64,000 nt of DNA from Thermoplasmata archaeon (lineage in GTDB: Archaea; Thermoplasmatota; Thermoplasmata; Sysuiplasmatales; Sysuiplasmataceae), in the NCBI GenBank assembly GCA_021806165.1, contig JAJZXY010000001.1:117951-181950 (forward strand), written 5' to 3'. Under the pieces are notes generated by a model, which saw nothing but the letters and a program-made list of their open reading frames with translations, was not told the DNA's origin and did no database searches. A program made the translations under genes and the position numbers. Shown piece by piece: positions 8,843-49,685 of this stretch (positions within the stretch are counted from its first letter, which is position 1; every line of letters begins with the position of its first letter).

Positions 8843-9625
8843 TCAGAAGCGCGGCTTGGGCTTTCTGAAATAAATCATGAACAGCAGTACTCCGGCTGCA
8901 ATGCAGCCTATGATGATGTAGTTGTCAATGACATTCGCAGAATTGCCCGGGATGTAGAGCGTGAAACTGGTCTCTATCTGCCCGTTGCCGAAGAAGAGCT
9001 GGCCGCTGGAACTGATCTTGACAGTTGCGACATTGCCTCCCGCGGGGTAGTTGTATGCAAGCCAGTCGAACGTTACATTCCGGGTCTGTCCGGCCGCGAG
9101 CGTCACATTCTGCGACTGGATGTACTTGTTGTTGATGTAGAGGGAGACGTTAGCATTCTGGACCCCCGATGAGCCCTGATTCGTTACGGGGACGGTGATT
9201 ATCACCGGTTTCACAACTGTCAGCAGGAATGTCTTGTTGGCTGAAATCTGCTGGTTGCCTGAGCCGGCTGTTATGTTGAAGAGCACTGTGACTATCTCGG
9301 CAGCCGTGCCTGCAGTGATGTTGATGACGAATCTCCCTGCCGCGCTGGTGCCTGTCGTCGGGGAAATGCTGAGTCCGGTGGTGTTTTTCGCCTGTACAAA
9401 CCCCGTGTAACTGTAATTTCCCTCGCCTGCAGGGCCGCCTGAAACATTGAGTATGTATTCGTGCGTGGTGCCATTGCCAATGAGCTGCGGGCCACCAAGG
9501 GCAGCAACAATTGGCCCTCCGGTGGATGCACCTGCATACTGCACACCTGCACCAGCCAATGGCACCGCTTCAAGGGCGGTTGCAACCAGCATGGCTGTGA
9601 AAAGGAAGAGTATGACCTTCTTCAC
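8843..9625 (-). CDS. Secreted/membrane-anchored CARDB-like surface protein
   Basis: Signal peptide MKKVILFLFTAMLVATALEA; VPVTNQGSSGVQNANVSLYINNKYIQSQNVTLAAGQTRNVTFDW (CARDB-like); C-terminal TM and KPKPRF. Confidence 0.75.
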   Translation of the reverse strand: MKKVILFLFTAMLVATALEAVPLAGAGVQYAGASTGGPIVAALGGPQLIGNGTTHEYILNVSGGPAGEGNYSYTGFVQAKNTTGLSISPTTGTSAAGRFVINITAGTAAEIVTVLFNITAGSGNQQISANKTFLLTVVKPVIITVPVTNQGSSGVQNANVSLYINNKYIQSQNVTLAAGQTRNVTFDWLAYNYPAGGNVATVKISSSGQLFFGNGQIETSFTLYIPGNSANVIDNYIIIGCIAAGVLLFMIYFRKPKPRF

Positions 9626-12600
9626 CTGATCAGCCTCCTCTTCTTGGCATAGTACACGTCGGCCACAATCAGCGTCGCAAGCACGAATATCACAACCGCG
9701 CGTTTCAGCGATATGAGGGGCGGCGGGCTTACTGAGGCACCCTGCCCGGACACAGTGATGCCGTTAAGCGTCACCACGGGTTTGGGCAGGCTTATTGGAA
9801 CGCTGATGGCAGAGGAGCTGCCTGTCTCCTTCTGCGTCACATTGACACCCACAGGCAGTATGCTCGTCGGGTTTGCCGTGGTGGCTGTAAGCGATATTGT
9901 GAGCGTCTGGTTCTGGCCCGGCTTCAGCGAGAAGAAGGTGTCATTGTAGAACGGGCCGTTGGATGTGGTGTATATGCCGCCTCTCCATCCCTCCGCATTG
10001 AGGCCCGCGATATTGCTCACAGACGCAACATAGTTGGAAACTGTATTTCCCGTGTTGTTTACCACGACAGAGAATGAGATTGTCCTTCCCACCTTCTCCT
10101 GGCCGTAGGAGGAGAAGGCAGTTGAGAAGCCATAGGATACAGGCACCTGTATGGATGTGTGCGCAGTTGAGTTTGCAGATGGGGAGAGCAGGGATGTCGC
10201 ACTGAACAGTACGTTGTTGTAGCCGCCAGCGGGATTGGATGAAGAGAGGGTGACATTAACGATCGCGGATGAATTCCTTCCCGTTCCCAGAACGACATAT
10301 GTGGGTGTGAACGATCCGTACCAGTTGCTGTTGTCCACGCTCATGTAGAATATGTCAGGCACGTCTCCGGTGTTGTTCACAAGGAGCGAGACGGATGTGA
10401 AGCCCGAAGCCCCCTGTGACTGCTGGGCAGACAGGACTGTGAGATCCACCGAGTATGTCGGCAGGAGGGAAAGGACGACCGGTATCTGAGAGGGGGATGA
10501 TATGTGGGCTGTGCTGTTGTAGGTATAGGCATACAGCGTGCCGTCCGAGGAAGTGTTGTAACTTGCCGTTATGCTGTAATTGCCACCTGGAAGCATGACT
10601 GAATATCTTCCGCCCGGAGAGGGGATTGTGAAATTGCCTCCAGCGCCGTTGAACGTTATGCTGGCGTCAACGCCGCCGATTCCGGGCACAGCCACGCTTC
10701 CGTTCACCGAGTATGCGAAGTCAAGCACCGGGTTGAATGTGGCGTTCTGGCCCGGAAGGACAGTGAGCTTTGTCACGTTGGCCGCATTTCCGCCTGAACT
10801 GTATGTCTCTACCGTGTAGTTGCCTGGGGAAAGCTGCACGCTGAAGCTGCCGTTCCCCGCGGTCTCTGTCTCGGCGGCGGCGCCCGTGGTGCCAATTGGA
10901 ATGAACTTGAGCTGAGACTGCACTGGTATACTGTAGAACCATGAGGCGGTCCCCGACACTGTGCTGTTGTAGCTTCCGACCGATGTCTGGATATCCACGT
11001 TCGCCGAAGTGCTCAGTTTCACAACGGTCCCTCCAGAATAGAGGACGTAAACCTGCCTTCCACTTTCATTCATCGTGGAAACGTAGGATGCATTGACAGT
11101 GTAGACTGAAGATGGGAGGGACACAGAGAACGTGCCTCCAGACTGGACCGCCGCCTGCACCGTAGCACCGCTGGACGCAGTGATGTATACTGTCGCAGAT
11201 GAGAGCGTGCTGCTTCCATGGTAGACGGTTCCGGAAAGGTTGAGCACCGGGTCCAGCGACAGTACGTATGTTGAAGGTGAAACTACGTCGGTGACATTGA
11301 GGAATGCATACGGGATATTCCGAACGCTTGTGTATGCGTACACAGTGTACTTCGCGGGCCGCAGGTAGACGCTGGTGTTGTTGGCAACATTGTCAAGGAC
11401 CATCGGCGAGCTCAGCGCAGGGCTGAAAATGTCTATCCTGGAAAGCTTGGTGGTATTGGTCGCACCCGAGGAGGACGGGAGTTTAAATGCAAGCGTTGTG
11501 TTGTACTTCACAACAACATCCGCATTGAAGACTGTATCGTGCCCAACCGGCACAGTAATGTTGCTCTCTGCAGCCGTGACGGTGTATTGCAGCGTGCTGC
11601 TGTTGTACCCGCTGAATGAAACCGAGTATATGCCGGGCTCAATAGTTGCAGAGTATGCGCCATTCGTGACAGGCACCGTGACGACGGTCCCGTTGATGTT
11701 GCTGAGCGTCATGTTGATTGACGAAGGCAGCACTGCAGATCCGACTGCGCTGCCGCTGAACTGCACGTCCCTTGCGTACATGGAAATGGTGCGGTATGCT
11801 GAGCCGGATGTGAGCCTGATGCTCTGGGATACCATGCCCTCTGAAGACAGCTGGACCACCGGGTTGAAACCGTCCGGCAGCGTGATTGAGTAGTAGCCGG
11901 TGAGGTTGCTGTAGGTGGAATATGTGAAATTCCCGTAACTGAAAGTGAACTGCGCACCAGTGATGTTCCTGGCCAGTCCGGACACGGCTGTGGCAACCTG
12001 GCCGGAGAACGTTGAGGCCTGGTTTTCGACTATGTTCATTGAGGTGGCAGCTCCGTTGACCGAGAACGTGCCCAGGTACGCGCTGTTGCTTCCAGACGTC
12101 CATATGCCGTAACTCCCGGTGGGCAGAATGGCGTAGAAGCCTCCGGAGGAGTTGGTAGTGAAATTAAGCTGAATTCCCTGCGCCTGTATGCTCACCTGCG
12201 CATAGGGAGAGTAGGTTCCCCCGGGTCCCGTTACGGTACCGGTCACAGGGTAGCCGTCAGAGAGTGAAAATCCGGCCGTGGCGGTGCCCCCGCGCAGGCT
12301 GATGTTGGACAGTACGACATACGGTGTAGAGCCGGAGTAGTAGACAGAGTACACAGTGTAGTTTCCTGAAGCGATGCTCAGCGAGTACCTGCCGGATTGT
12401 CCTGAAATTGCGGAAAACGGCTGTATCCCCCCGGCCTTGCTGTAGAAGTAGAGAGTAACCGCGGGAGCAGGCTGGCCGCCAACAGTCACAGTTCCGCTGA
12501 GCTCAGTGTTTGTCAGCGCCGTGATGTTGAACCCGGGATGGGAACGTGTATAGTTCAGCGTGACAGCGCTTATCGTGTAATGGCTGGAGGTGTACGCGGA

Positions 12601-15600
12601 TGATGACACGTACACTGTATAGTTCCCGACCAGAAGGTCGGGGAATGAGTATGAGCCGTTGGCCGCAGTGGTGACAACAGCAGAGTAATTGTTCTGTGCC
12701 CCCTGAAGCGCGACCGTCAGGCCGGAAGCAGGTGCACCTGCAGTGTTGTAAACGCTGCCGACCACATAATAAGGCGTGAGTGCAAGATTCTGGGGTGTTG
12801 TGAAATTGTACCGGGCTGTGACATTGGGTTGTGCAAGTATTGTCGACTTTCCGCTGGTCAGGTAGATGTTGTACTCCCCAGGCAGGACGGAGGTGAAGTT
12901 GTAAACACCGTTTGCAGCGTAGGTGCTGTATGTCAGCCCGGTGGTGGTGTTTATGAGCTTAACTCCCACATTTAGGACAGGCGGTGTCACTCCGGGCGTG
13001 TAGGTGAGGTTGGACGGTGTTGTGAAATATATGTGTCCTGTCACCGACGTCCTTCCCAGAGTCATCACGCCCATGTTGATGTTGTAGGCTGGCAGTCCGG
13101 TTGATGAGTTGAGCGTCGGGTTGCGCATTGCCTGTGAATATGAAACATTAAGGTTGACTTCCTTGAGTATCGTCCCGGTCTGTGTGAGATTCTGCGTTGC
13201 AGTTGTAAGGGCACCAGAGCTGTACACTATCGTGTCGTTTCCCTGCATTGCAACAGCTGAATACTGTCCCTGTGAGTTGGTGTAGACCACATCATGCGGA
13301 ATCCCCCACTGGTCCAGCACAGTGACCCTGACATTCTTCGCTGGCTGGCCGTTACCCATCAGCACCGTGCCGTTCACGTATGCACCAGGGTAGTACTCCA
13401 TCAGCACAATCCCGTTCTGGAAGTCACTCTGGGGGCTCAGGTCGACCGTGTAGTTCTGGAAAGTTGGATCGGCTTTAGCCAGCTGTATTGCCTTCTGAAG
13501 GCTTATCGCGCTCCAGTCATTGGGGTGGTCCTTGACGTACTTCAGAGGATACGGGTTGTAGTATGCCGTCCTGTATATCATTTCAAAGTGTGACTCCATC
13601 CAACCCGGGAGCGGTCCCATGTTGGTCAGATGCGAATTGTAGAGGAAGTTGCCCGAGAGTCCCGGAAGGCCGCTCAGGTTCTGGCCTGTTATGTCATAGG
13701 CTGAGTAGCCCATGAAGAACCTGTAGAGCGTCATGTTGTAGAACATAGGCTGGTAGTTGATGTTGTAACTCACAACCTGCGAGCCTGTGGGAACAGACTG
13801 CAGGGGGTATGATACGCCGGTGGACGTCGTGGCGGAGAGCGTGTAGTAGTTGTAGGGTATGTTGTAGACGCCGGGCCCTGCTATTGGCCTCCCCCCAAGG
13901 AAGGCCGGAGCATAGAATACGCCTGTGTTGGTGGCACTGAAGGGGAACAGCCTTGCGTCAACCGAAAAGAAGCCTATGAACTTGCCAGTCAGCTGCGAAA
14001 CAGTCTGATAGAGCCTCACCACCGAGTTGAGCCCTATATTCGATATTGTGACCATGAGGACCGCGTACATCACATTCTGGCTCGTCACGGAGGAGGCGAA
14101 GGGGCCGTAGACTGCCGGGTGGGCAAGGACTGTGTTCTTGTAACTGCCAGGGCTGGCCAGGACGTTGCTGACGTAGGTTGAGTTTATGCCTGCGGAATCA
14201 AGTGCCGCTGTCAGATTCTGCGGGAGTGCATTTCCATTGGCCAGATATGCAGCCTGAAGCACCCTTGCCACCAGGAGCGATATCGCCTGTGTCTGGTTCT
14301 GGCTGAAAAGGAATGCGGAAGCTAGCTGGTAACCCTGCTGGAAATCATCCGCCACCGTCGGTACCTGTGCGAATGTGATTGCAGCACTGCCATAATCCCA
14401 CCAGCTCAGGTAGCCGGGGCGGTCGTAGTACGGAGTGATATTGCCCGTCAGGTTGTTCAGATAGCCCCAGGCTGGAGGGAAGTATGTTCCCTGCGTCTCC
14501 AGGCTGTAGCCGAAGGCGCCGAAGTAGAAAGGAGATGCAGTAGAATTCGCAACATACCCAGAAGGCCGGAGGAATCCCGGAAGGACATCATATACCTGCG
14601 AATTCAGGGACGACTTGGAGGTGGAAGGCGTGGCGGCGTCTATGCCTGTCCAGACAACGGGCATGACAACTATGAATGCGACGAATATCACAACAAGGAC
14701 ATGCTTGATCTTGACGCTCTTCCTGATGCCCGACCAGCTTGTCCCGTAAGTCTGGAAGCCCTTCCTTATCTCGGAGAAGTCTGTCCAGCTCACCAGGGCG
14801 AATATGCCCTCGCCTGCGTAGAGGACGAAGGCAGTGGTCGCATCCAGTACAAACCTCACTGTGGAAACGGCCATGAACGCTGAAATCAGGAACCATATGA
14901 TCATGAGCATCTGGGAGTTGGTGAGCCCTTTCGGGGACCTGTAGAAGATGTATGCCACCTCTGCGAATGCGATGAAGAACACCGCTCCCCCGAGTGACAG
15001 GGCAAGGAGACTGAATGGCGGAGTCTGAGCCTCTGCAATCGTGGTGTAGACAGCGGACTTGATGAAATAGCTCTGCGCGGTGAGTATCTTGATTATCACC
15101 CCGTGTATTATCCTCGGATCGGCTATTTCCACAACTCCGACCAGCACCAGGGCTATTCCCACAAGGGCGGATATTAGCGTCAGCCATGGCACATCCCTCG
15201 CAACTGTGTAGATGACGCCCAGGATCAGCGTGCCCAGGAAGAAGACGAATGAAACGTAGTACCATGGGTAGATGGCATTGCTGTTGTAGTAGACAGGCAG
15301 GGCAAGGACCATGAGAACAGAGCCTGCAACCGCATAAATGCCTGTCAGCGCAAGTGTGTCCCTGTTCTTGAACTTGTAGATGAATGACTGGACGAGGTAG
15401 AAGAGTGAAATTGTAACAATTATGTACGAATATCCTTCCCATGCATTCGCTATGCCTGCAAGGACGACTCCCGCCAGCGCTGCATAGAGGAGGGATGTCT
15501 TGTTGTCCCTGTAGTATCTGGTGACCCCGGAAGCAATTGCGTCGGTGTCGGGCAGGTAGCTGTCCTTCCTGTTCCACCTTTCTACCCACCTTGTCCCCTT

Positions 15601-16302
15601 AATGCTGTTCAGTGCCCTGAACAGGAAGAAGAAGGTCACGGCGGTGAGCATCAGGACGAACGGGTCGTGTACACCAAAGCCGACTGTGCTTTCGCTTACG
15701 ATGGAGGGGAGGAACGCCATCAGGGCTGCCGCGATTATGCCTGCCTCCTTTGAAAAGAGCTCCTTCCCCAGGTAGTAAGTGACCACTATTGCTACGGTTC
15801 CGGAAATGGCCGACATGGAGACATAGGCCACGACTCCGGCGGTAAGCTGTCCCGAGTAGATTGAGCCTGTTGCCGGCAGGTGTGAGAAGAACGAGACTGG
15901 CCAGGTAAGCAGCACAGTGCTCCAGACGTAAAACGGCAGGAACGGGTTGAACGAGCCAATCGGGTAGTTCAGCATCGGGTCGAACAGAAGCTGGTGGCCC
16001 GTGCCGAGCGCATAGCTCACCACATTGAAATAGAAGTCGGCATCAGACCCCCCGCTCAGTGATGGGAAGCCCCCGGCAATAGACTGGAAGAAGTCGAAGT
16101 AGAACCTGAGGTATGCCCCCAGCAGCACTATGATCACAAGAGCTCCGAACGTTGTCCAGTCTGCCTTCTTCAGTGAAGCATATCCTCTCTTCAACGCAGA
16201 ATCCCTGTTTACTACTTCAGACCCGCCCCCTCTCCCGGTGGCCGCCTGCTTGCTATCAGATGCCATTGAAATATGCCCAACCAAGCAGTATTTTTTGCGC
16301 AA
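9622..16302 (-). CDS. aglB: Oligosaccharyltransferase STT3/AglB with very long repeat-containing C-terminal extension
   Basis: Multi-TM N-terminus, VGFGVHDPFVLMLTAVTFFFLFRAL, catalytic-region motif LSWWDYGSAAITFAQ, followed by >1000 aa of carboxypeptidase-regulatory-like repeats (e.g. GTVTVGGQPAPAVTLYFYS..GRYSLSIASGNYTVYSV) and a C-terminal TM. Confidence 0.9.
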   Translation of the reverse strand: MRKKYCLVGHISMASDSKQAATGRGGGSEVVNRDSALKRGYASLKKADWTTFGALVIIVLLGAYLRFYFDFFQSIAGGFPSLSGGSDADFYFNVVSYALGTGHQLLFDPMLNYPIGSFNPFLPFYVWSTVLLTWPVSFFSHLPATGSIYSGQLTAGVVAYVSMSAISGTVAIVVTYYLGKELFSKEAGIIAAALMAFLPSIVSESTVGFGVHDPFVLMLTAVTFFFLFRALNSIKGTRWVERWNRKDSYLPDTDAIASGVTRYYRDNKTSLLYAALAGVVLAGIANAWEGYSYIIVTISLFYLVQSFIYKFKNRDTLALTGIYAVAGSVLMVLALPVYYNSNAIYPWYYVSFVFFLGTLILGVIYTVARDVPWLTLISALVGIALVLVGVVEIADPRIIHGVIIKILTAQSYFIKSAVYTTIAEAQTPPFSLLALSLGGAVFFIAFAEVAYIFYRSPKGLTNSQMLMIIWFLISAFMAVSTVRFVLDATTAFVLYAGEGIFALVSWTDFSEIRKGFQTYGTSWSGIRKSVKIKHVLVVIFVAFIVVMPVVWTGIDAATPSTSKSSLNSQVYDVLPGFLRPSGYVANSTASPFYFGAFGYSLETQGTYFPPAWGYLNNLTGNITPYYDRPGYLSWWDYGSAAITFAQVPTVADDFQQGYQLASAFLFSQNQTQAISLLVARVLQAAYLANGNALPQNLTAALDSAGINSTYVSNVLASPGSYKNTVLAHPAVYGPFASSVTSQNVMYAVLMVTISNIGLNSVVRLYQTVSQLTGKFIGFFSVDARLFPFSATNTGVFYAPAFLGGRPIAGPGVYNIPYNYYTLSATTSTGVSYPLQSVPTGSQVVSYNINYQPMFYNMTLYRFFMGYSAYDITGQNLSGLPGLSGNFLYNSHLTNMGPLPGWMESHFEMIYRTAYYNPYPLKYVKDHPNDWSAISLQKAIQLAKADPTFQNYTVDLSPQSDFQNGIVLMEYYPGAYVNGTVLMGNGQPAKNVRVTVLDQWGIPHDVVYTNSQGQYSAVAMQGNDTIVYSSGALTTATQNLTQTGTILKEVNLNVSYSQAMRNPTLNSSTGLPAYNINMGVMTLGRTSVTGHIYFTTPSNLTYTPGVTPPVLNVGVKLINTTTGLTYSTYAANGVYNFTSVLPGEYNIYLTSGKSTILAQPNVTARYNFTTPQNLALTPYYVVGSVYNTAGAPASGLTVALQGAQNNYSAVVTTAANGSYSFPDLLVGNYTVYVSSSAYTSSHYTISAVTLNYTRSHPGFNITALTNTELSGTVTVGGQPAPAVTLYFYSKAGGIQPFSAISGQSGRYSLSIASGNYTVYSVYYSGSTPYVVLSNISLRGGTATAGFSLSDGYPVTGTVTGPGGTYSPYAQVSIQAQGIQLNFTTNSSGGFYAILPTGSYGIWTSGSNSAYLGTFSVNGAATSMNIVENQASTFSGQVATAVSGLARNITGAQFTFSYGNFTYSTYSNLTGYYSITLPDGFNPVVQLSSEGMVSQSIRLTSGSAYRTISMYARDVQFSGSAVGSAVLPSSINMTLSNINGTVVTVPVTNGAYSATIEPGIYSVSFSGYNSSTLQYTVTAAESNITVPVGHDTVFNADVVVKYNTTLAFKLPSSSGATNTTKLSRIDIFSPALSSPMVLDNVANNTSVYLRPAKYTVYAYTSVRNIPYAFLNVTDVVSPSTYVLSLDPVLNLSGTVYHGSSTLSSATVYITASSGATVQAAVQSGGTFSVSLPSSVYTVNASYVSTMNESGRQVYVLYSGGTVVKLSTSANVDIQTSVGSYNSTVSGTASWFYSIPVQSQLKFIPIGTTGAAAETETAGNGSFSVQLSPGNYTVETYSSGGNAANVTKLTVLPGQNATFNPVLDFAYSVNGSVAVPGIGGVDASITFNGAGGNFTIPSPGGRYSVMLPGGNYSITASYNTSSDGTLYAYTYNSTAHISSPSQIPVVLSLLPTYSVDLTVLSAQQSQGASGFTSVSLLVNNTGDVPDIFYMSVDNSNWYGSFTPTYVVLGTGRNSSAIVNVTLSSSNPAGGYNNVLFSATSLLSPSANSTAHTSIQVPVSYGFSTAFSSYGQEKVGRTISFSVVVNNTGNTVSNYVASVSNIAGLNAEGWRGGIYTTSNGPFYNDTFFSLKPGQNQTLTISLTATTANPTSILPVGVNVTQKETGSSSAISVPISLPKPVVTLNGITVSGQGASVSPPPLISLKRAVVIFVLATLIVADVYYAKKRRLIR

Positions 16303-19760: not shown

Positions 19761-22343
19761 TTATCTTTTTATCAGCCGCCTGACCCTTTTCCACAGGTTT
19801 GCAGCCTCAGCAGGATAGAGTGTTACCAGGAGAATGGCTGCAGATGCCGCATAGGCTGTACCTGAAATTGCATAGCCTGCTGCGGCAGCGGTGAATCCTG
19901 AGAAGTGGAAGCCAACCTGTCCGGGGCCGCCTGTCACAGTGTAGATGGAGTAGAGCGGCCCTTCCAGGGATGCGGTCGTATTGCCCGCCGGCTGCTCTGC
20001 GTAATATGAGACAAGGCCGCTGCTGCTACTCCATGATGAGACACCGCTTCCCGCAGGGGGGATGAAGACGAGATAGTTTGTGGCGCCGATGCCCAGGAGG
20101 CCCGGCAGCGAGACGCTGAAGCTTGCGGGGTTTTCCTCATAGCTTGCGAGGGGAACATTTCCGGCCTGCGAACCGTTGGAGCCCTGGCCACCCGGTATCC
20201 ATGCGTAGTCCATAAGGTTGACCTGGGAGGAAAGATTAACCAGCTCAGCATAAGATGAGAAATGCCTGACCTGCTGCACTATGTATGCCCTCGAAACCCG
20301 GTGGAGGTTGAGGAAAAGGGCGCACTCGCTCGTGTTCAGCACAAGCGCAAGGTCAGACTGCCTGTACAGGAATGAGTAATTCCAGTAGTCTGCGCTCTTG
20401 CTGAGGAAGACGTACTTCGCGTCAAGGAGTGACAGTATGTTGCCCAGGTGCGTAACGTTGTTGCGCTGCGAAAGCACCTGTGTGACCAGCAGATCCGCTG
20501 CTCCCTGCACCGCTTCCTCCCCCCCCACATACGAGTTAGTGCCGCCGAATACCAGGTTCTGCCTGAAGAACTGGTTGAACGGGCTGGCAAACTTTGTCTG
20601 CGACCAGTTGTAATACATGTAGGTGTGCCATGGGAAAACTATGACCGAGTTGTCAGATGTATTCTGACTCATGATGTTTCCGGCCGTGTACCATGAGGAT
20701 GGATACTGCACATTTGTGAGCTGGCCGTTGAACCCGTCAACCTCCATGTACGAATAGGCAAATGGTGCAATCAGCGCGACGGCCATGAGCATGACGACTG
20801 CGATCTCCGCAAACCTCCTAGCGGTTCCCCTGGAGGGGACGGCAGCTCCGCTTCTCAGGAATGACTCAAGTTCGTATATGCCCAGCGCGCCGAGGTAGCT
20901 GTAAGCGAGCACCACCACCGCAACCATCTTCTGCGGCTCCCTGAAGCCGCTGAAGAAGGGCATGTTGTTGAACAGGTAGGTGTATATCCCGGATGTGAGA
21001 GGCGAGGAGATGCCCGTAGCCAGTATGATGCTTGCGACCATGCCCACGGTAAGGGTGGCAACCAGCGGTCCCCTCCTTCTGCTGTTCCAGTTTGAAACTA
21101 TGCCAAAGACGGCCAGGAAGAGGAAGAGAAGGAAGAATATTATCAGATCGGGGTAGGCTGTTATGGGGTAGGCATAACCTGTCCTGAAGAAACCGTACAT
21201 TGCTGCTATGCTAAGCATGGTGTTGTTGTAGATTGTGGGCTGCGATGCAAATGCTATCGCATCCAGGAATGTGAAACCGCCGAGTATCCTGCCCGATGCG
21301 GCACCTGAGAACAGAAGCCAGTATGCGTTGAAAAGGGCAAACATTGCGGCAAAGGAGAGGATCGGCCCGGCACTGCCCCTGACGTATTTCAGCACTTCCC
21401 CCCTGTTGTAAACTGTCTTTGCAGCATAGTAGATTACAGCCAGTGCAAGCAGTAGAACCAGGGTATGTGTGTCAAAAACAGCAACGAGGGAGAACAGCGA
21501 TGCCGCAAAGAATGCCTGCCTGAACCATCTGCCTGAGCCGCCTGAGTCAGCAAGGTTCACAAATGCCAGCAGGCAGAGCGGCATGAGCGCATATGCGAAC
21601 GAGAGCGCCCATGCGCCCGCAAGTATGCGGGCATAGAGGAACGGGTTGACAGTGTACAGAAATGATGCATAGTATCTCGCAGGCCCCATCTTCCTCCCTG
21701 CGAACATGTACATCGAATAGCCGGAGAGGAAGAATGTCAGGAAGAGGAATAGCTTCTCCACCGCCCATCCCGGCACCGCCATAACCGCCGCGGCCTGGAA
21801 GGCCGTCAGCGCAGCGGCTCCTCCGAGTGATGTGCCAATTCCATATAGCCCCGCCGCTGGAACAACGGGGCCGAATACCATGTCGGTCACAAGGACGTAA
21901 CCGGGGGAAAGGAATGCCTGCATGATGAGCAGTGACAGCAGTGCAAAGGATGCAACAGGAAGCAGCTCCCTGGCGGCACCCTGGAATCTGCCGCCGTCTG
22001 AAATGAGCTTTGAAATGCGCCTGATGCCCCTACCGGCGATGCGGGAGAGGCGCCCTCCCCGGTGCCTTTCCCGGTAGCCGTCGGCTATCATGAGGATGAC
22101 GCCAGCCACGAGGCAGTAGTAGGAGACAATGGCAATGTCGTTGGCAGCACCGCTGTTGCCTGCCGCATCTTCAACGGCGGCGCTCACAAGCAGGACAAGA
22201 GCAAGGCCTATCAGGTACCTGGGATCAGTCCTGTAGAGCAGGTAGGCTGCTGTGAAAGGGAGCAGTATCGCGAGCCCTACTATATTGTATATCTCCGTCT
22301 CCTGCCTCCTCGGGAACAGAATACCTGCCTGTAGATAAAGCAA
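19761..22343 (-). CDS. Large multi-pass membrane protein, GT-C/YfhO-like glycosyltransferase candidate
   Basis: 860 aa, many hydrophobic segments followed by an extracytoplasmic domain (ADLLVTQVLSQRNNVTHLGNILSLLDAKYVFLSKSADYW...) and C-terminal TM with RRLIKR. Confidence 0.6.
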   Translation of the reverse strand: MLYLQAGILFPRRQETEIYNIVGLAILLPFTAAYLLYRTDPRYLIGLALVLLVSAAVEDAAGNSGAANDIAIVSYYCLVAGVILMIADGYRERHRGGRLSRIAGRGIRRISKLISDGGRFQGAARELLPVASFALLSLLIMQAFLSPGYVLVTDMVFGPVVPAAGLYGIGTSLGGAAALTAFQAAAVMAVPGWAVEKLFLFLTFFLSGYSMYMFAGRKMGPARYYASFLYTVNPFLYARILAGAWALSFAYALMPLCLLAFVNLADSGGSGRWFRQAFFAASLFSLVAVFDTHTLVLLLALAVIYYAAKTVYNRGEVLKYVRGSAGPILSFAAMFALFNAYWLLFSGAASGRILGGFTFLDAIAFASQPTIYNNTMLSIAAMYGFFRTGYAYPITAYPDLIIFFLLFLFLAVFGIVSNWNSRRRGPLVATLTVGMVASIILATGISSPLTSGIYTYLFNNMPFFSGFREPQKMVAVVVLAYSYLGALGIYELESFLRSGAAVPSRGTARRFAEIAVVMLMAVALIAPFAYSYMEVDGFNGQLTNVQYPSSWYTAGNIMSQNTSDNSVIVFPWHTYMYYNWSQTKFASPFNQFFRQNLVFGGTNSYVGGEEAVQGAADLLVTQVLSQRNNVTHLGNILSLLDAKYVFLSKSADYWNYSFLYRQSDLALVLNTSECALFLNLHRVSRAYIVQQVRHFSSYAELVNLSSQVNLMDYAWIPGGQGSNGSQAGNVPLASYEENPASFSVSLPGLLGIGATNYLVFIPPAGSGVSSWSSSSGLVSYYAEQPAGNTTASLEGPLYSIYTVTGGPGQVGFHFSGFTAAAAGYAISGTAYAASAAILLVTLYPAEAANLWKRVRRLIKR

Positions 22344-22426: not shown

Positions 22427-23833
22427 TTGAAGCTGATCCGCGGAATGCTTCCCGCATCATCCTCCCTGGTCGGGGTCTCATCGCTCTTCCTCATGGCAGC
22501 GGGCTCAGGCGGTGGCAGGCAGCGCGACGACAGCGAACCACTTGGACGGAGCAGCTACTTCGTGGACCGCGAAGGCAACATACGCGTCTTTGAGTCCATG
22601 GTTGTCAAGGGGGACATACGCTCAACAGGCGATCTCTGGATAGGACGCGGAGCAGTCATCGAGGGCAGCGCATACGCGGACGGAGATCTTGTGATGGAGA
22701 GGGAGTCGCGTGTCACAGGCTCGATATTCGTCAGGGGCTCTGCCAACTTCAAGCAGGACTCCGTGGTTTCGGGCAGCGTGGATATCGGTGGGGCTGTTTA
22801 CAGGGGGAATAATCCGCCCGAGCACCTGTTCAGGCGCAAGTATCCGCCTCCTTCAACCGAAGATGCCCAGCCAGTGGACCAGGGCAGCCTCGAATCGGAG
22901 GTTTCCTCCGTGCTGGAGGGGAGGAAGCTCCAGGACGGCGGGATGGTCATCATCCATGAAAAGAAGGCGGAGCTTTCATACGCACTTCTCAGGAGGATGC
23001 TGGCTGACGGCACGCCATGCATGATTATAGGCAGGGAGCCACCAGAGAGGCTGCAGAGCGTGCGTGGTCTCAGGATTGACGAGGAGAGCGTCATATGGCT
23101 CACCAATCTCGTGGGACGTCGCTGCGTAAACCCGACCCACCTCAGTGCGATGCTCAATACGCTGACAAGGTTTTTGGACAACAACAGGAAGGGCGTTGTG
23201 CTGATAGACGGTATAGAGTACCTGATTACGAACAACGGTTTTGAGCAGGTGCTGAAATTCATCAACAAGATAGAGGATATGATTATCACAAGCTCAGTAT
23301 CATTCATTGTCACACTGGACCCGCGGACGCTTGACGCTCAACACCTTGCGCTCATAGAGCGCGGTGCAGAGACCATTGTCAGCGGCGAAAGGCAACCCGA
23401 GGAAAGAGGCGGGATCAGGGAGGAATTCGAGGAAAGGCTGAAGGAGGAGGCTGTCCGGAGGCAGCAGCTGGAAGACAGGCTTGACGGCTACCTCTACAGG
23501 ATTGAGACCGCCATAAACGCCGCCCAGGCTAGGCCACAGGCTGAGCAGGCTTCCATGGAGCCTGAAATAAGTGAGCTGAAGGGTGCCCGTGACACCATAA
23601 GGAGCGAACTGAGGACCCTCGAGCAGCGCATCGGGGAGAAGGAGAGGGAACTGCTTGAGACGCTTGACAGGAAGATTCTGGAGATGAAGGAGGAGGACAG
23701 CAGGACAGACCTGGTGGCGGCGATGGAGGAGCAGCTCAGGGACAACTCAGAACTGTTGCTGAAGGCTGTGCTCCTTGCTGAAAAGCTCTCTGCGGAGAAG
23801 ACCGCAAGGCTGGAGAGCCGGGCCGGCGACTGA
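22427..23833 (+). CDS. Bactofilin-like beta-helix domain + DUF835 + C-terminal coiled coil
   Basis: MVVKGDIRSTGDLWIGRGAVIEGSAYADGDLVMERESRVTGSIFVRGSANFKQDSVVSGSVDIGG (bactofilin-like rungs); MIIGREPPERLQSV...VIWLTNLVGRRCVNPTHLSAML...GVVLIDGIEYLITNNGFEQVLKFINKIEDM...FIVTLDPRTLDAQHLALIERGAE (DUF835); long Glu/Arg/Leu-rich coiled coil. Confidence 0.82.
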   Translation: MKLIRGMLPASSSLVGVSSLFLMAAGSGGGRQRDDSEPLGRSSYFVDREGNIRVFESMVVKGDIRSTGDLWIGRGAVIEGSAYADGDLVMERESRVTGSIFVRGSANFKQDSVVSGSVDIGGAVYRGNNPPEHLFRRKYPPPSTEDAQPVDQGSLESEVSSVLEGRKLQDGGMVIIHEKKAELSYALLRRMLADGTPCMIIGREPPERLQSVRGLRIDEESVIWLTNLVGRRCVNPTHLSAMLNTLTRFLDNNRKGVVLIDGIEYLITNNGFEQVLKFINKIEDMIITSSVSFIVTLDPRTLDAQHLALIERGAETIVSGERQPEERGGIREEFEERLKEEAVRRQQLEDRLDGYLYRIETAINAAQARPQAEQASMEPEISELKGARDTIRSELRTLEQRIGEKERELLETLDRKILEMKEEDSRTDLVAAMEEQLRDNSELLLKAVLLAEKLSAEKTARLESRAGD

Positions 23834-23838
23834 CCTCA

Positions 23839-25671
23839 CTAATTCCTCTTCATCCTGAACTTGGAAAACACGTAGAGGGATGCCACCATCGCCGTGACCA
23901 GGGGGAGGAGTATGGCGGGCAGCAGTTCGTTGAAACCAGTGTACTGCGAGAGTGTGTAAACCACGGAATTGGAACTCTGGTTTTCCACGCTTACCAGGTA
24001 TGTCCCGGGTGTCCCGTTCGGCACACTGATAATCTGGCGGAATGTCCCATTTGCTGAAATGCCTGAAACCTGGGTTAGCTGGTTGCCGTTCCATAGTAAA
24101 GTCAGGTTGGTTCCGGGCACGAAGCCCGTGCCCGAAACAGCCAGCCTGCTGCCTGCAGGTCCGGAAATGCTGCTGAGGCTGATGTGCGGCTGGATTATGA
24201 GTGTGAATACGGTCGCATTGTTGCCTTCGACATCATAGGCACCGAGGGAGACATTTCCTCCGGGAAGCACCGGAACAGTGATGTTGGCATACAGCGTTCC
24301 GTTCTTCCCCGAGGTATAGGGCTGAGGCATCAGATCAGGCCCTATGTAGATGCGTACCCTGGACGAGGGGTAGTAATAGTTGCCTGTCACCTGGATGGTT
24401 GCGCCTACATTGACGCCCACCTCCGTTGCCTGCACTGTGGGCCTGACGGTCAGCATGGTGATGTTGGAGGCAAGGCCCGCCTGCGAAGTGGCCTGTACGG
24501 TGTAGCGGCCGGCCGTCATCCGGGGGACTGTAAAGTTGATGACGCCCGTCCCGTTCCCCGCAGTCGTCACAGTCCCCGCCGATCTCCCGTTGTATATGAG
24601 GTGAAGCGACGAGGCAGGCGAGAATCCTTCGGCAAAGATGCTGACCGTGCTGCCGGGAGAAGCTCCGTATCTTGAAAGCAGCACCGTGGAAGCGTTTATT
24701 GTGAAATACGCGACAGAGCTGACTCCTGTCGTGTTCGCAAAGAGTGCATGCTCACCTATCGTCCCCGCAGGTATTGAGAGGACGAGAATTGCCTTCCCCT
24801 GGCCGGAGGCGCGGGTCGACTTGACCGTCTTGCCCGCCCATGAAATGCCTATCGCCTTGCCGGCAGGAAAACCGGCAAGGCTTGCAACAACAGCCTGCCC
24901 GACGTGTCCCGAGCTCGGCACAAGCTGGAGGCTGGGTATGACTGCAAGTGAGGCCGTCACTGTGAAAGCGCCGCTCATCCTCACTGTGTAGTTGCCTGAA
25001 GGCATGTCTGCCAGCTGGAAGGAAACGCTGAAGGCACCGTTTTCGTCAGATGAGGTCCTTCCCGCTGACTGGTAGGACTGATTTCCCACCACTGGGTATC
25101 CGACCTGCTGCATTGCATCGAAGCCTGCTCCGAATATGCTCACAGGCCCGCCACTTGCCTGTGAGCCGGGGTATACGAACAGTTCTGCCGCAGCCGCGTC
25201 GGGCGTGGAAGCTATGCCTGCATTTTCGACTGTGAACATGGAACCGCCTGCAATGCCATCGAGTGAAAAGGGTCCCACGCTTGCATTCCCCTCAAGCGTG
25301 ACGGTGAATGAGGAGAGCGTGCCCGACGCGGATACGTTCACTGCAGCATTAATGCAGGCAACAGCTGCGCCCGAACTGTCTGTGATTTCTGTCGAGTTGG
25401 CTGCTACCGGGAAGCCTGGAGGCAGACCGGATATGGTTGAGAAGGCAACAACGCTGCCGTAAGTGCCAGGCGTTGAAACAACAGATGAAACTGAGGCATT
25501 GATGCCGCCCACGGCCGATGTGTTGGCAATTGCAGGTGCGGCGGCAGGCAGGGCACTGGGCGCCTGCAGTCCTGCCCCGGATGCCTGTCCCGCCTGGAGC
25601 GGGGACGCTGTTAATATTAATACAACAATAGCCGCTGCCAAGTGCCCCGCCGACGCCATCTTTGCCACCAT
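23839..25671 (-). CDS. Membrane-anchored surface protein with Ig/IPT-like repeats
   Basis: Signal-like N-terminus (AAAIVVLILTASPLQAGQA), repeated SPGSTVSIFAEGFSPASSLHLIYNG / GSRLAVSGTGFVPGTNLTLLWNG units, C-terminal TM LLPAILLPLVTAMVASLYVFSKFRMKRN. Confidence 0.8.
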   Translation of the reverse strand: MVAKMASAGHLAAAIVVLILTASPLQAGQASGAGLQAPSALPAAAPAIANTSAVGGINASVSSVVSTPGTYGSVVAFSTISGLPPGFPVAANSTEITDSSGAAVACINAAVNVSASGTLSSFTVTLEGNASVGPFSLDGIAGGSMFTVENAGIASTPDAAAAELFVYPGSQASGGPVSIFGAGFDAMQQVGYPVVGNQSYQSAGRTSSDENGAFSVSFQLADMPSGNYTVRMSGAFTVTASLAVIPSLQLVPSSGHVGQAVVASLAGFPAGKAIGISWAGKTVKSTRASGQGKAILVLSIPAGTIGEHALFANTTGVSSVAYFTINASTVLLSRYGASPGSTVSIFAEGFSPASSLHLIYNGRSAGTVTTAGNGTGVINFTVPRMTAGRYTVQATSQAGLASNITMLTVRPTVQATEVGVNVGATIQVTGNYYYPSSRVRIYIGPDLMPQPYTSGKNGTLYANITVPVLPGGNVSLGAYDVEGNNATVFTLIIQPHISLSSISGPAGSRLAVSGTGFVPGTNLTLLWNGNQLTQVSGISANGTFRQIISVPNGTPGTYLVSVENQSSNSVVYTLSQYTGFNELLPAILLPLVTAMVASLYVFSKFRMKRN

Positions 25672-25813
25672 GCTGGAATTGAGTGCCCTAACTGATTGGA
25701 TGTATAGGCAGGAGATAAGTTTCCCCGCTATCTTAATATCAATTGTGATAATGAGCCCTTTAAATATTAATCATTAGCCAGTTTAAGCATAGATCACAGA
25801 AGGGAGTACTCAC

Positions 25814-26386
25814 TTGACGGACCCGCTAGTGGAACACGACGGAAGGAAGATACTCACGGGGGAGGTCTACCTGGTGGAGGAACCAAAACCTTCGCTCTTC
25901 TTCGACATCTTTTCTGAGGCAATGATACAGGGTGTGAAGGGCCTCCTGATAACACGTGAATTCCCGGAAAGGCTCAGGTCAAGCTACAACCTGAACAGTG
26001 CCTCGATTGTCTGGCTTACTCATGTGGTCGGCAGGGACTGTGTTGAGCCGACACAGACCAACCTGATACTCAACAGGATTGTATCATTCACAAAGGAGGG
26101 TTCGCCGGCGCTGATCATGCTTGACGGCATAGAATACCTGATCAACCAGAACAGCTTTGACGTGGTTATAGGCTTCCTGAACCACATCAGGGACCTCATC
26201 ATAATAAAGAACTGCGTGCTTATGGTCGCAATAGACCCGAATACGCTGGATACAAAGGAGCTGGCTCTGGTGGAGAGGAATCTGCAGGTGATAAAGGCGA
26301 GCGGTCAGCCCCAGTCAGGCCCTCTCCTTTCCCTTGAGTCTGGCGTGCTGAAGGTTATGCGCATGCCCAACTCGAAGCAGCTCTGA
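25814..26386 (+). CDS. Stand-alone DUF835 protein
   Basis: LLITREFPERLRSSYNLNSASIVWLTHVVGRDCVEPTQTNLILNRIVSF...ALIMLDGIEYLINQNSFDVVIGFLNHIRDLIIIKNCVLMVAIDPNTLDTKELALVERN. Confidence 0.85.
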   Translation: MTDPLVEHDGRKILTGEVYLVEEPKPSLFFDIFSEAMIQGVKGLLITREFPERLRSSYNLNSASIVWLTHVVGRDCVEPTQTNLILNRIVSFTKEGSPALIMLDGIEYLINQNSFDVVIGFLNHIRDLIIIKNCVLMVAIDPNTLDTKELALVERNLQVIKASGQPQSGPLLSLESGVLKVMRMPNSKQL

Positions 26387-26387
26387 C

Positions 26388-27680
26388 CTACTGCCCTTCG
26401 TCCCTCTTTCTCCTGAAGAGCAGCACACTGGCTACTCCTATCAGCAGGGCTGCTGACACGAAGGGCAGTACAAATGCAGCAAGGCTGCCTGTCTGTCCAG
26501 ATGCAGGGACGTATATGTGCAGGGATGCCATGTTGCCCGGGGAATAAACGGTTATTATGGTGTAGGAGCCGAGTGATGTCGTGTTCTCCAGCGTGGAGTT
26601 GCCGTACGGTGCCACTATGGAGGGCAGGGAGCTGCTGTTGACAACCTGCCTTCCGTTCACTTCCACAGAGAGGCTGGAAATGCTGCCGTTGAAGATTGAG
26701 CTTGAAACAAGGAGGACAACCGTATTCGGCATGCCGGGCTGCATGGCAGTCATCTGCAACTGAATATCACCCCTGGAGACAGTCATCTGCTGCACCCTCA
26801 GCGCATTGTTGAAATAGGCGCCGTCATAGGCTGCCTGGCCCCCCTGCATGGTCACCGCCGCGTAGTATGATATTGTGTTGTGGCGCATTCCCTGCGCTAT
26901 GATGGAGAGGGTGGAAGCATAGTCGGAGTCACCGCTGGGGACACTGAACGAGTTTATGTAGGAACCGGAAAGCACTCTCTTTGTCACAGAGTATATGCCG
27001 CCGGTGCTGTGCGCCTCAGTGAAGTCTGAACCCTCGGACACAAAGTAGCCCGCAAGCTGGGTGTCATTGAACATCACAGCGACTGTGCCGTTGGTCGTTG
27101 CAGTCGTCCCCGACGAGGGGCTGATTGTGTACTTGCTGTTCGGCTGCAGCCCCTGGGAGAGGATGGCCTGTACGGTCGCACTTGCGCCGTATGAGAAGAC
27201 CTGGATGAGCGCCTGTGGATTGTCATGGGCAATAAGCATGGTGTTGTTGGTATATGCATAGAAGATGGAACCTATCACACCGTGCCCCAGGACGAGGCCT
27301 CCGGTCGACAGAACCTGGTACTGTGAGTAAACCACCCTGCTGACATTTGAGAAGGGTGTTTCATTCACATGGACGTCATAAATAGCTATATTGTCCTGAT
27401 TTTGTGACGCCCCACTGTAGATAAATGACAGGAATTTGCCTGTGATATTAAAAGTCAGGGGGTTATAGGAAAAAGGTGCAAAAAAAGTGGAATTTGCCAT
27501 GCTCTGCGATACGCTTGTCGCAAGTATTCCACTGAAGTAGCTGTTCGGCGGTACCATAAGCTCCGTCGATGACTGAGCCCTCTGCCCGGATGGAGTGGCT
27601 GCGGTAAGCCGGATCGAGGCTGACGCCATCATCAGCCCTATGACAACTAGTATGAGCGCCCTGCGGATCCCTGTATTCAT
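26388..27680 (-). CDS. Membrane-anchored surface/secreted protein
   Basis: Signal peptide RRALILVVIGLMMASASIRLTAA; long beta-rich Ser/Thr/Asn region; C-terminal TM LAAFVLPFVSAALLIGVASVLLFRRKRDEGQ. Confidence 0.78.
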   Translation of the reverse strand: MNTGIRRALILVVIGLMMASASIRLTAATPSGQRAQSSTELMVPPNSYFSGILATSVSQSMANSTFFAPFSYNPLTFNITGKFLSFIYSGASQNQDNIAIYDVHVNETPFSNVSRVVYSQYQVLSTGGLVLGHGVIGSIFYAYTNNTMLIAHDNPQALIQVFSYGASATVQAILSQGLQPNSKYTISPSSGTTATTNGTVAVMFNDTQLAGYFVSEGSDFTEAHSTGGIYSVTKRVLSGSYINSFSVPSGDSDYASTLSIIAQGMRHNTISYYAAVTMQGGQAAYDGAYFNNALRVQQMTVSRGDIQLQMTAMQPGMPNTVVLLVSSSIFNGSISSLSVEVNGRQVVNSSSLPSIVAPYGNSTLENTTSLGSYTIITVYSPGNMASLHIYVPASGQTGSLAAFVLPFVSAALLIGVASVLLFRRKRDEGQ

Positions 27681-27807: not shown

Positions 27808-28092
27808 ATGGAGGGCGATATCAGGCCAATGAACGAAATTGCACTCTTCCTGATATTCCTTGTGCTTGGTTTTTCGGTCCTGCTCCTTGCAATATCCGCA
27901 GCCAGCGCTGTGCGCGTCCGGAGCACCAAGACCTCGCTGCTGGCACTGGCATTCCTCTTCTTTTTCCTGAAGGAGGTGTATCTGCTCTATCTCGAGCTCT
28001 TCACTTCTTTCCGCATGTACGATTTCGTGACAGTCATGAGCATCATGGACGTACTTGTTCTGTTCTTCTTCTATGCTTCAGTTCTGAAATGA
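27808..28092 (+). CDS. Small multi-TM membrane protein adjacent to a winged-helix regulator
   Basis: 94 aa with hydrophobic helices (IALFLIFLVLGFSVLLLAISAASAV; LLALAFLFFFLKEVYLLYLELF; SIMDVLVLFFFYASVL). Confidence 0.7.
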   Translation: MEGDIRPMNEIALFLIFLVLGFSVLLLAISAASAVRVRSTKTSLLALAFLFFFLKEVYLLYLELFTSFRMYDFVTVMSIMDVLVLFFFYASVLK

Positions 28093-28101
28093 CGGTAGAG
28101 G

Positions 28102-28626
28102 GTGATGGAGAAGGACCCGCTTTCTCTGGAAACGAGGAGACGTATCTTCCAGTTCATTCGGGAGAGGCCAGGAAGCTACCAGCGTGAGCTGGAAAGGCAG
28201 CTTGAGCTTCAGACAGGCCAGCTGCAGTACCATCTGGGAGTCCTGGAGGAACTGAGGCTGATCACATCACGGGGAGACGGCTTCAGGAAGAGGTACTTCG
28301 TGTCTTCCGAAGTCAGTCCGAGGGACAGGCAGCTGCTCTCCATCCTGAAGCTCAAGACGCCGAGGCGAATCGTTCTCTACCTTCTGCAGCATCCCGAAAG
28401 CTCATTCGACGAGATACTGTCGCAGTTTACCTTTTCCAAGAGCGCTCTTTCCTTCCACATCAAGAAGCTGACAGAAAACGGCATCGCCTCGTCCGAAAGG
28501 TCGTCCGCGGGGGCGCGTTACTCCATCATAAACGAGGATGAGGTCGCGAGGACCATTATAACCTACAGGTCAACCTTCCTAGACAATCTGGTGGACAGCT
28601 TCATAGATTCATGGCTCCAGCTGTGA
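28102..28626 (+). CDS. Tandem winged-helix (ArsR/MarR-like) transcriptional regulator
   Basis: ETRRRIFQFIRERPGSYQRELERQLELQTGQLQYHLGVLEELRLITSR... and second wHTH LKTPRRIVLYLLQHPESSFDEILSQFTFSKSALSFHIKKLTENGI. Confidence 0.85.
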   Translation: MMEKDPLSLETRRRIFQFIRERPGSYQRELERQLELQTGQLQYHLGVLEELRLITSRGDGFRKRYFVSSEVSPRDRQLLSILKLKTPRRIVLYLLQHPESSFDEILSQFTFSKSALSFHIKKLTENGIASSERSSAGARYSIINEDEVARTIITYRSTFLDNLVDSFIDSWLQL

Positions 28627-28672
28627 CTATGCAATGGAAGGTTAATAACCGCCCGCGCTCATCACAAGGCAG

Positions 28673-29134
28673 GTGAACCCGACGGCCGGTCAGCTTGACA
28701 GGACGGATCTGCAGATACTGAAGACGCTGCAGGAGAATGCCAGAATGAGCTACAGGGACATTGCCAAGCATCTCCACCTCTCCCTGAATACTGTCTCAAG
28801 CAGGATAAGAAGGATGGAGGCGGAGGGGACCATTCAGCGCTATTCTGCCATGGTCGATTCTGCCCGGGCAGGTTTCGACATGACGGCGATAATAGGCATA
28901 CAGATTTCCAGGGGAAAACTCCTGGAGGTTCAGCGCAGGATTGCGGCTGACGGGCACGTCTCGGCAGTCTACGATGTCACAGGCGAGTGGGACTCCATAA
29001 TAATAGCAAGGTTTGCCAGCAGGGCGGACCTGAATTCGTTCATCAAGAAGATGCTCACAACCGAATATGTTGTAAGGACGCAGACACAGGTCGTCCTGAA
29101 CACTGTCAAGGAGGATTACGCCCTTCCGCTCTGA
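28673..29134 (+). CDS. Lrp/AsnC family transcriptional regulator
   Basis: LDRTDLQILKTLQENARMSYRDIAKHLHLSLNTVSSRIRRMEAEGTIQRYSAMVD...GEWDSIIIARFAS. Confidence 0.92.
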   Translation: MNPTAGQLDRTDLQILKTLQENARMSYRDIAKHLHLSLNTVSSRIRRMEAEGTIQRYSAMVDSARAGFDMTAIIGIQISRGKLLEVQRRIAADGHVSAVYDVTGEWDSIIIARFASRADLNSFIKKMLTTEYVVRTQTQVVLNTVKEDYALPL

Positions 29135-49454: not shown

Positions 49455-49685
49455 CTTACAGGAAAATAAAATCCCCCAAAGGATATAAAGCGGTTTGTTC
49501 AGCTTATCGGGTTCGAAATCCCTTGCGATGCCCCTGCCTGACCAGTCTCGCACACCTGCATTGACAGCCACATCTCTCCTTTCTCCGTAATATCCAGTCA
49601 TTCAAGTCAGCCGCCGACAGCCGGAGGGCGACAGCTTAATCCATGAGGAGGGCTTAGGCACCACGGATCAGACTGGGGCATCAAT

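Follow-up and report, generated by a model that had tools for sequence, protein, structure and literature searches.

Gene Organization at the Locus

The window, that is, the whole stretch of 64,000 nucleotides of a Thermoplasmata archaeon that was analysed, contains a block of four consecutive genes alternating in strand and in type, as the original prediction had described, and this is borne out by the open reading frames, by Pfam and by a codon-usage gene caller, which keeps all four as coding. They are a bactofilin-like + DUF835 gene (22427–23833, plus strand, 468 aa), the gene of surface protein 1 (23839–25671, minus strand, 610 aa), a stand-alone (solo) DUF835 gene with a TTG start (25814–26386, plus strand, 190 aa) and the gene of surface protein 2 (26388–27680, minus strand, 430 aa). 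Both plus-strand proteins indeed possess DUF835 (Pfam E = 1.3e-31 and 7.6e-35, respectively), and the signal peptide and C-terminal transmembrane (TM) segment claimed for the minus-strand proteins were found in both of them. The two surface proteins are characterized by a hydrophobic N-terminal signal, a single C-terminal TM segment and a short basic tail, which has nine residues in surface protein 1 and eight in surface protein 2; the former has Ig-like repeats in addition, while the extracellular part of the latter gave no Pfam match.

The bactofilin-DUF835 and surface 1 genes are convergent with a gap of 5 bp, the solo DUF835 and surface 2 genes are convergent with a gap of 1 bp, and the surface 1 and solo DUF835 genes are divergent with a region of 142 bp between them. 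On one side of the block lies a gene for a polytopic GT-C-like membrane protein (19761–22343, minus strand; a sub-threshold Pfam match to GT-C_AftD, and synteny), divergent from the bactofilin-DUF835 gene across 83 bp, and on the other side (27808–29134, plus strand) are genes for a small 3-TM protein, a double winged-helix regulator (HTH_HVO_0163_N/HTH_5) and an Lrp/AsnC regulator; all of these neighbours are conserved in the window's own family, hereafter f1. Elsewhere the window encodes an STT3/AglB-like oligosaccharyl transferase of 2226 aa (9622–16302, minus strand) whose C-terminal part bears a very long series of carboxypeptidase-regulatory-like repeats.

DUF835 as an Inactivated KaiC Domain

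DUF835 (PF05763) was described in archaeal signalling proteins as an inactivated KaiC (iKaiC) domain (Galperin et al. 2018, PMC5847659), and no tested function of it was reported in the literature found. The proteins starting at 22427, 25814 and 46491, the last being a third paralog described below, match it with 109.6, 120.1 and 119.2 bits, respectively, against a gathering cut-off of 33.1. An AF2 model of the solo DUF835 protein (mean pLDDT 75, from a three-sequence alignment) was matched by Foldseek to the N-terminal domain of BcsE, PH0250, FlaH/ArlH and KaiC with moderate TM-scores of about 0.5, a PDB search with a profile of 51 DUF835 sequences gave FlaH (4yds, E = 0.0019), and the Walker A motif (GxxxxGK[ST]) was present in none of 86 DUF835 domains. 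The predicted fold of DUF835 is thus that of KaiC/RecA with Walker A missing, which accords with the published iKaiC label. The DUF835 of the window shares with iKaiC the Pfam family and the KaiC-like fold devoid of the ATP-binding loop; however, in the table of that paper DUF835 is fused to REC and PAS domains, whereas here it occurs solo or fused to bactofilin-like, surface protein, isoleucyl-tRNA synthetase (IleRS) or DnaA-like parts, and with shared operators. ArlH/FlaH (4yds) is the best PDB sequence-profile match and one of the top structure matches, but ArlH binds ATP and serves the archaellum, while DUF835 is without Walker A. The N-terminal domain of BcsE, the top structure match, has a RecA-like fold which has lost Walker A, oligomerizes and helps to target partners to the membrane (PMC7439463). 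Both domains are RecA/KaiC-like without Walker A, although BcsE serves bacterial cellulose secretion and its likeness to DUF835 is structural only, no sequence-level relation having been shown; by analogy, BcsE may be taken as a precedent for a non-catalytic scaffold role of DUF835.

The Bactofilin-DUF835 Protein

The protein encoded at 22427–23833 consists of a putative bactofilin-like β-helix (residues about 44–120), DUF835 (about 174–313) and a long C-terminal coiled coil. The bactofilin domain of the original prediction can be upheld only in part: a weak match to Bactofilin (PF04519) recurs in six of seven orthologs at E < 0.01 (best 2.6e-05), but the window protein itself scores 21–24 bits and stays below the gathering score (24.1 versus 27.9). 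Its AF2 model has a short-strand repeat at residues 52–120 (pLDDT about 80–89), a KaiC-like domain and helices at 328–467. When the whole model was submitted to Foldseek, FlaH, RecA and KaiC were matched through the KaiC part only and no bactofilin was matched, and a PDB profile search found only non-bactofilin proteins, mainly hexapeptide-type transferases, with a best E-value of 0.002. Bactofilins are made of a short-strand β-helix with variable flanks, as is predicted for this protein, which differs from them in its score below gathering and in its extra iKaiC domain and coiled coil.

The Fused Paralog

A third paralog (46491–49601, minus strand, DUF835 E = 1.4e-34) has a signal peptide, repeats, a TM segment and a cytosolic DUF835 in one protein; position 49454, given earlier as its limit, is an in-frame ATG of this open reading frame and perhaps the true start. 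This fusion had been put forward as support for a link between the DUF835 and surface proteins of the block. The architecture was confirmed, but a DUF835 tree (115 sequences, few columns and some long branches, so that only starred forks were used) joins the DUF835 of the fused paralog to the DUF835 that IleRS carries in the same genome (100/99), within an IleRS-type clade, while the two DUF835 domains of the block are in a separate clade (97/96) together with solo DUF835 proteins of families f3 and f19. In addition, the extracellular part of the fused paralog gave no meaningful BLAST match to surface protein 1 or 2. Because of the separate clade and the dissimilar outer parts, the fusion is no proof that the DUF835 and surface proteins of the block cooperate, and it was rejected as a Rosetta stone for the block. 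The fused paralog is adjoined in the window by a gene (42056–46342, minus strand) for a Pro-kumamolisin-type serine peptidase of 1428 aa with a C-terminal TM segment. Furthermore, a surface/TM gene and a truncated DUF835 gene occur as adjacent open reading frames at L044:6232-7574 and resemble a decayed fused paralog.

Conservation of the Block

The family f1 comprises eight genomes in two genera, and the four-gene block is kept in all eight, so it is more than a chance arrangement; contig ends interrupt it in two genomes, G003 and G001, the latter also having an additional predicted open reading frame between the surface 1 and bactofilin genes. The flanking genes, namely those of the GT-C protein, the regulators, an aminotransferase and other housekeeping genes, are equally conserved in f1, and because the whole block is syntenic, adjacency alone proves nothing within this family. 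In a search of 150 genomes of the class, strong homologs of surface protein 1, surface protein 2 and the bactofilin part were found only in f1. DUF835 was detected in 106 of the 150 genomes with up to 19 matches each, and the genome of the window (1.88 Mb) has nine DUF835 genes above the cut-off. Between the two genera, the surface proteins share 27–39% identity and DUF835 at least 60%.

As a check, the original prediction had proposed to count how often surface-type genes are direct neighbours of DUF835 genes in archaeal genomes. For this, genes were called in 81 loci (1185 genes, 91 with DUF835), a surface-type gene being defined by a signal and a TM segment. Outside f1, such genes made up three of 94 neighbours of soluble DUF835 genes versus 11 of 556 in the background (p = 0.44), that is, no enrichment was found, and the usual neighbours there are Orc1/Cdc6 (15 loci), HAD (six), enolase (five), RFC (four) and a winged-helix gene. 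Consequently, conservation of the neighbourhood holds inside f1 (8/8 genomes) but not in related lineages, and the general linkage of DUF835 to surface genes was rejected on this neighbour count. The block exists, but only in this one family.

An Operator-Like Palindrome in the Divergent Promoter

When the 142-bp divergent region was aligned across f1, a conserved block, TATCAnnnnTGATAATGA, followed by CTTTAAATAT, became apparent. It includes an operator-like palindrome, TATCAATTGTGATA (25737–25750), which lies 65 bp from the start of surface 1 and 63 bp from that of solo DUF835, and the TATA-like sequence CTTTAAATAT (25758–25767, plus strand), 46 bp upstream of the solo DUF835 start. The palindrome is conserved with TGATAATGA and the TATA box in all seven aligned f1 genomes. 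TATCAATTGTGATA is an exact TATCA(N4)TGATA adjoining the TATA box, and the motif was found de novo from the alignment, independently of the paper on CsmR, a haloarchaeal regulator with the same site (see below). A divergent promoter that is conserved and contains such an operator-like palindrome makes co-expression of surface 1 and solo DUF835 likely. The operator is absent from the GT-C/bactofilin intergenic region and from that between surface 2 and the 3-TM gene, which leaves the divergent region as the only one of the three to have it; the operator was accordingly dismissed as a feature of the whole cluster.

Distribution of the Operator in the Class

In the 180 bp upstream of 90 DUF835 genes, TATCA ranked first among the 1024 possible half-sites with a spacer of 4, and spacers of 0–3 and 5–8 gave no signal there. 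The related TrmBL1/TGM site (TATCAC-N5-GTGATA) was rejected by this spacing, only spacer 4 being enriched. Sites with at most one mismatch occur within 180 bp upstream of 19 of the 90 DUF835 genes, six of 13 winged-helix genes and 20 of 847 other genes, and shuffled upstream sequences gave 0.6 on average; the enrichment at DUF835 genes over others (Fisher p = 1e-10) was obtained with genes sampled by the authors, among which related genes are not independent. Grouped at 50% identity, 10 of 30 DUF835 clusters have sites. Moreover, 12 whole genomes contain 81 exact sites versus six of reversed-pattern controls, and among 150 genomes the excess varies by family, being strong in some (33 vs. 3, 23 vs. 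0 and 22 vs. 1) and missing in others, f9 for example. Sites were found, among others, at six Ras-like GTPase genes, at genes of KaiC ATPases, of CheR and of a response regulator, and at those of a winged-helix family of about 114 aa. Besides the DUF835/surface 1 region, f1 genomes have sites at the genes for a DUF5518-like 4-TM protein and for an HTH_45 protein. An f19 relative of the solo DUF835 gene has the exact operator 99 bp upstream and no surface-gene neighbour. TATCA-N4-TGATA is also over-represented in f17 (e.g., 21 vs. 1 in G029), where no DUF835 was detected. At five loci (L138, L139, L161, L188 and L189), a DUF835 gene lies beside a small winged-helix gene with a CsmR-type site upstream of DUF835.

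CsmR and a Candidate Regulator

CsmR, a winged-helix protein of 13 kDa, regulates motility and cell shape in Haloferax volcanii; its ChIP-seq motif is TATCA(N4)TGATA next to a TATA box, and csmR is found mainly in Halobacteria and in some Thaumarchaeota (PMC13286277, 2026). The operator of the Haloferax CsmR regulon is identical to that of the window, is likewise placed by a TATA box and has KaiC-type signalling nearby (CirA). Unlike that regulon, the putative one described here belongs to another class and has DUF835, KaiC, Ras-like GTPase and winged-helix genes as its targets. The winged-helix family of about 114 aa, present in 77 of the 150 genomes, is a candidate counterpart of CsmR (HVO_1209). 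Its relatives in haloarchaeal plasmids are about 27–36% identical, and no operator was found upstream of four of them. The homolog in the window's own genome (C8:27116-27388) has a one-mismatch site 92 bp upstream. In f7 and f17, the motif is present and no member of the winged-helix family is detectable.

In six genomes searched for archaellin and CheB, neither was detected, so the known targets of CsmR are absent from them, and archaellum motility was discarded as the purpose of the regulon here. Since the site is present where archaellin and CheB were not found, it may originally have served signalling in general and not motility.

Functional Interpretation

The best-supported functional link in the block is that surface 1 and solo DUF835 are co-regulated from one putative CsmR-type operator, and not that their products are in contact. 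Of the association of DUF835 with surface genes that had been proposed, a unit in f1 in which one pair shares a conserved divergent promoter is retained and contact between the proteins is not; the most probable reading is that surface 1 and solo DUF835 are regulated together as part of a CsmR-type signalling regulon. The following explanation of the whole is held with slightly more confidence than doubt. The family-specific block would combine two DUF835 proteins of non-catalytic KaiC fold with two surface proteins anchored in the membrane, and the divergent pair would be its working unit. A winged-helix regulator, perhaps of the family of about 114 aa, would bind TATCA-N4-TGATA midway between the two starts beside the TATA box, and when bound it would switch surface 1 and solo DUF835 together, on or off, as CsmR does at its Haloferax targets. 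The solo DUF835 protein, its ATP-binding loop lost, may act as an adaptor in the KaiC/GTPase signalling network of the cell, surface protein 1 would remodel the cell exterior under the same signal, and bactofilin-DUF835 may be a polymer-forming scaffold displaying the same kind of adaptor domain. Surface protein 2 might take part as well; no operator was found at its promoter.

Three other explanations have to be weighed against this. That the four genes are merely inherited together without a joint function, the operator serving only one of the two divergent genes, is possible though doubtful. The equal conservation of the flanking housekeeping genes in f1 agrees with it, as does the fast divergence of the surface proteins beside a well-kept DUF835, and the f19 DUF835 gene, having the exact operator without a surface neighbour, makes the association of operator and DUF835 look older than that of surface 1 and DUF835; however, the operator stands midway between the starts, and every aligned f1 genome has kept it together with the divergent layout of the two genes. 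It is rather unlikely that bactofilin-DUF835 filaments form an envelope scaffold which organizes the assembly of surface proteins or their glycosylation with the divergent GT-C membrane protein. The short-strand repeat and coiled coil and the conservation of the GT-C gene in f1 would suit such a scaffold, and bactofilins are described as morphogenetic scaffolds in bacteria, but the sub-gathering Pfam match, the PDB profile search that found only other proteins and the Foldseek matches restricted to the KaiC part speak against it.

The model of the original prediction, in which DUF835 proteins work physically with their surface-protein neighbours at the inner membrane face, is unlikely. Fusions of signal peptide, repeats, TM segment and DUF835 in the window and in family members indicate that DUF835 can sit under the membrane as part of a surface protein. 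Nevertheless, the cytoplasmic tails of surface proteins 1 and 2 have only about 6–18 residues in all orthologs, so there is little for a DUF835 protein to grip; adjacency of DUF835 and surface genes is not enriched outside f1, and the argument from the fusion is weak because the fused DUF835 belongs to another clade and its extracellular part is unrelated to those of surface proteins 1 and 2 by BLAST. These findings weigh against this model, and co-regulation of surface 1 and solo DUF835 is preferred.

In a wider sense, the chances seem evenly balanced that the CsmR-type operator marks an old signalling regulon, present across much of the class even without archaellin and CheB, which would place DUF835 proteins under common control with active KaiC ATPases, Ras-like GTPases and a winged-helix factor that regulates itself, and whose circuit in f1 would have gained a cell-surface protein. 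A shared operator matching that of an archaeal regulator defined by ChIP-seq is a testable handle on when, and with which partners, DUF835 is made, and it extends the CsmR site beyond the Halobacteria and Thaumarchaeota to lineages in which neither archaellin nor CheB was found.

Other Contexts of DUF835

DUF835 was also encountered in other contexts. IleRS with a C-terminal DUF835 occurs in eight families, with a helix-hairpin-helix insert in at least one case (L040:9921-13613, which is on contig C20 of the window's own genome, and L012-L015, L017, L018, L022, L027, L035, L037 and L038), and contig C24 of the same genome encodes a zinc ribbon, a DnaA-type AAA+ domain and DUF835 in one protein (L045:7755-9851; Bac_DnaA E = 1.3e-47). 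At 15 loci, spread over eight families, a solo DUF835 gene lies directly downstream of Orc1/Cdc6 on the same strand, and gcvT often comes next (L141, L152, L155, L157, L162, L163, L165, L166, L171, L174, L177, L180, L181, L186 and L190). Another solo DUF835 gene adjoins the enolase gene in several families (L041, L143, L158, L160 and L168), and at four loci it adjoins an RFC-like gene as well.
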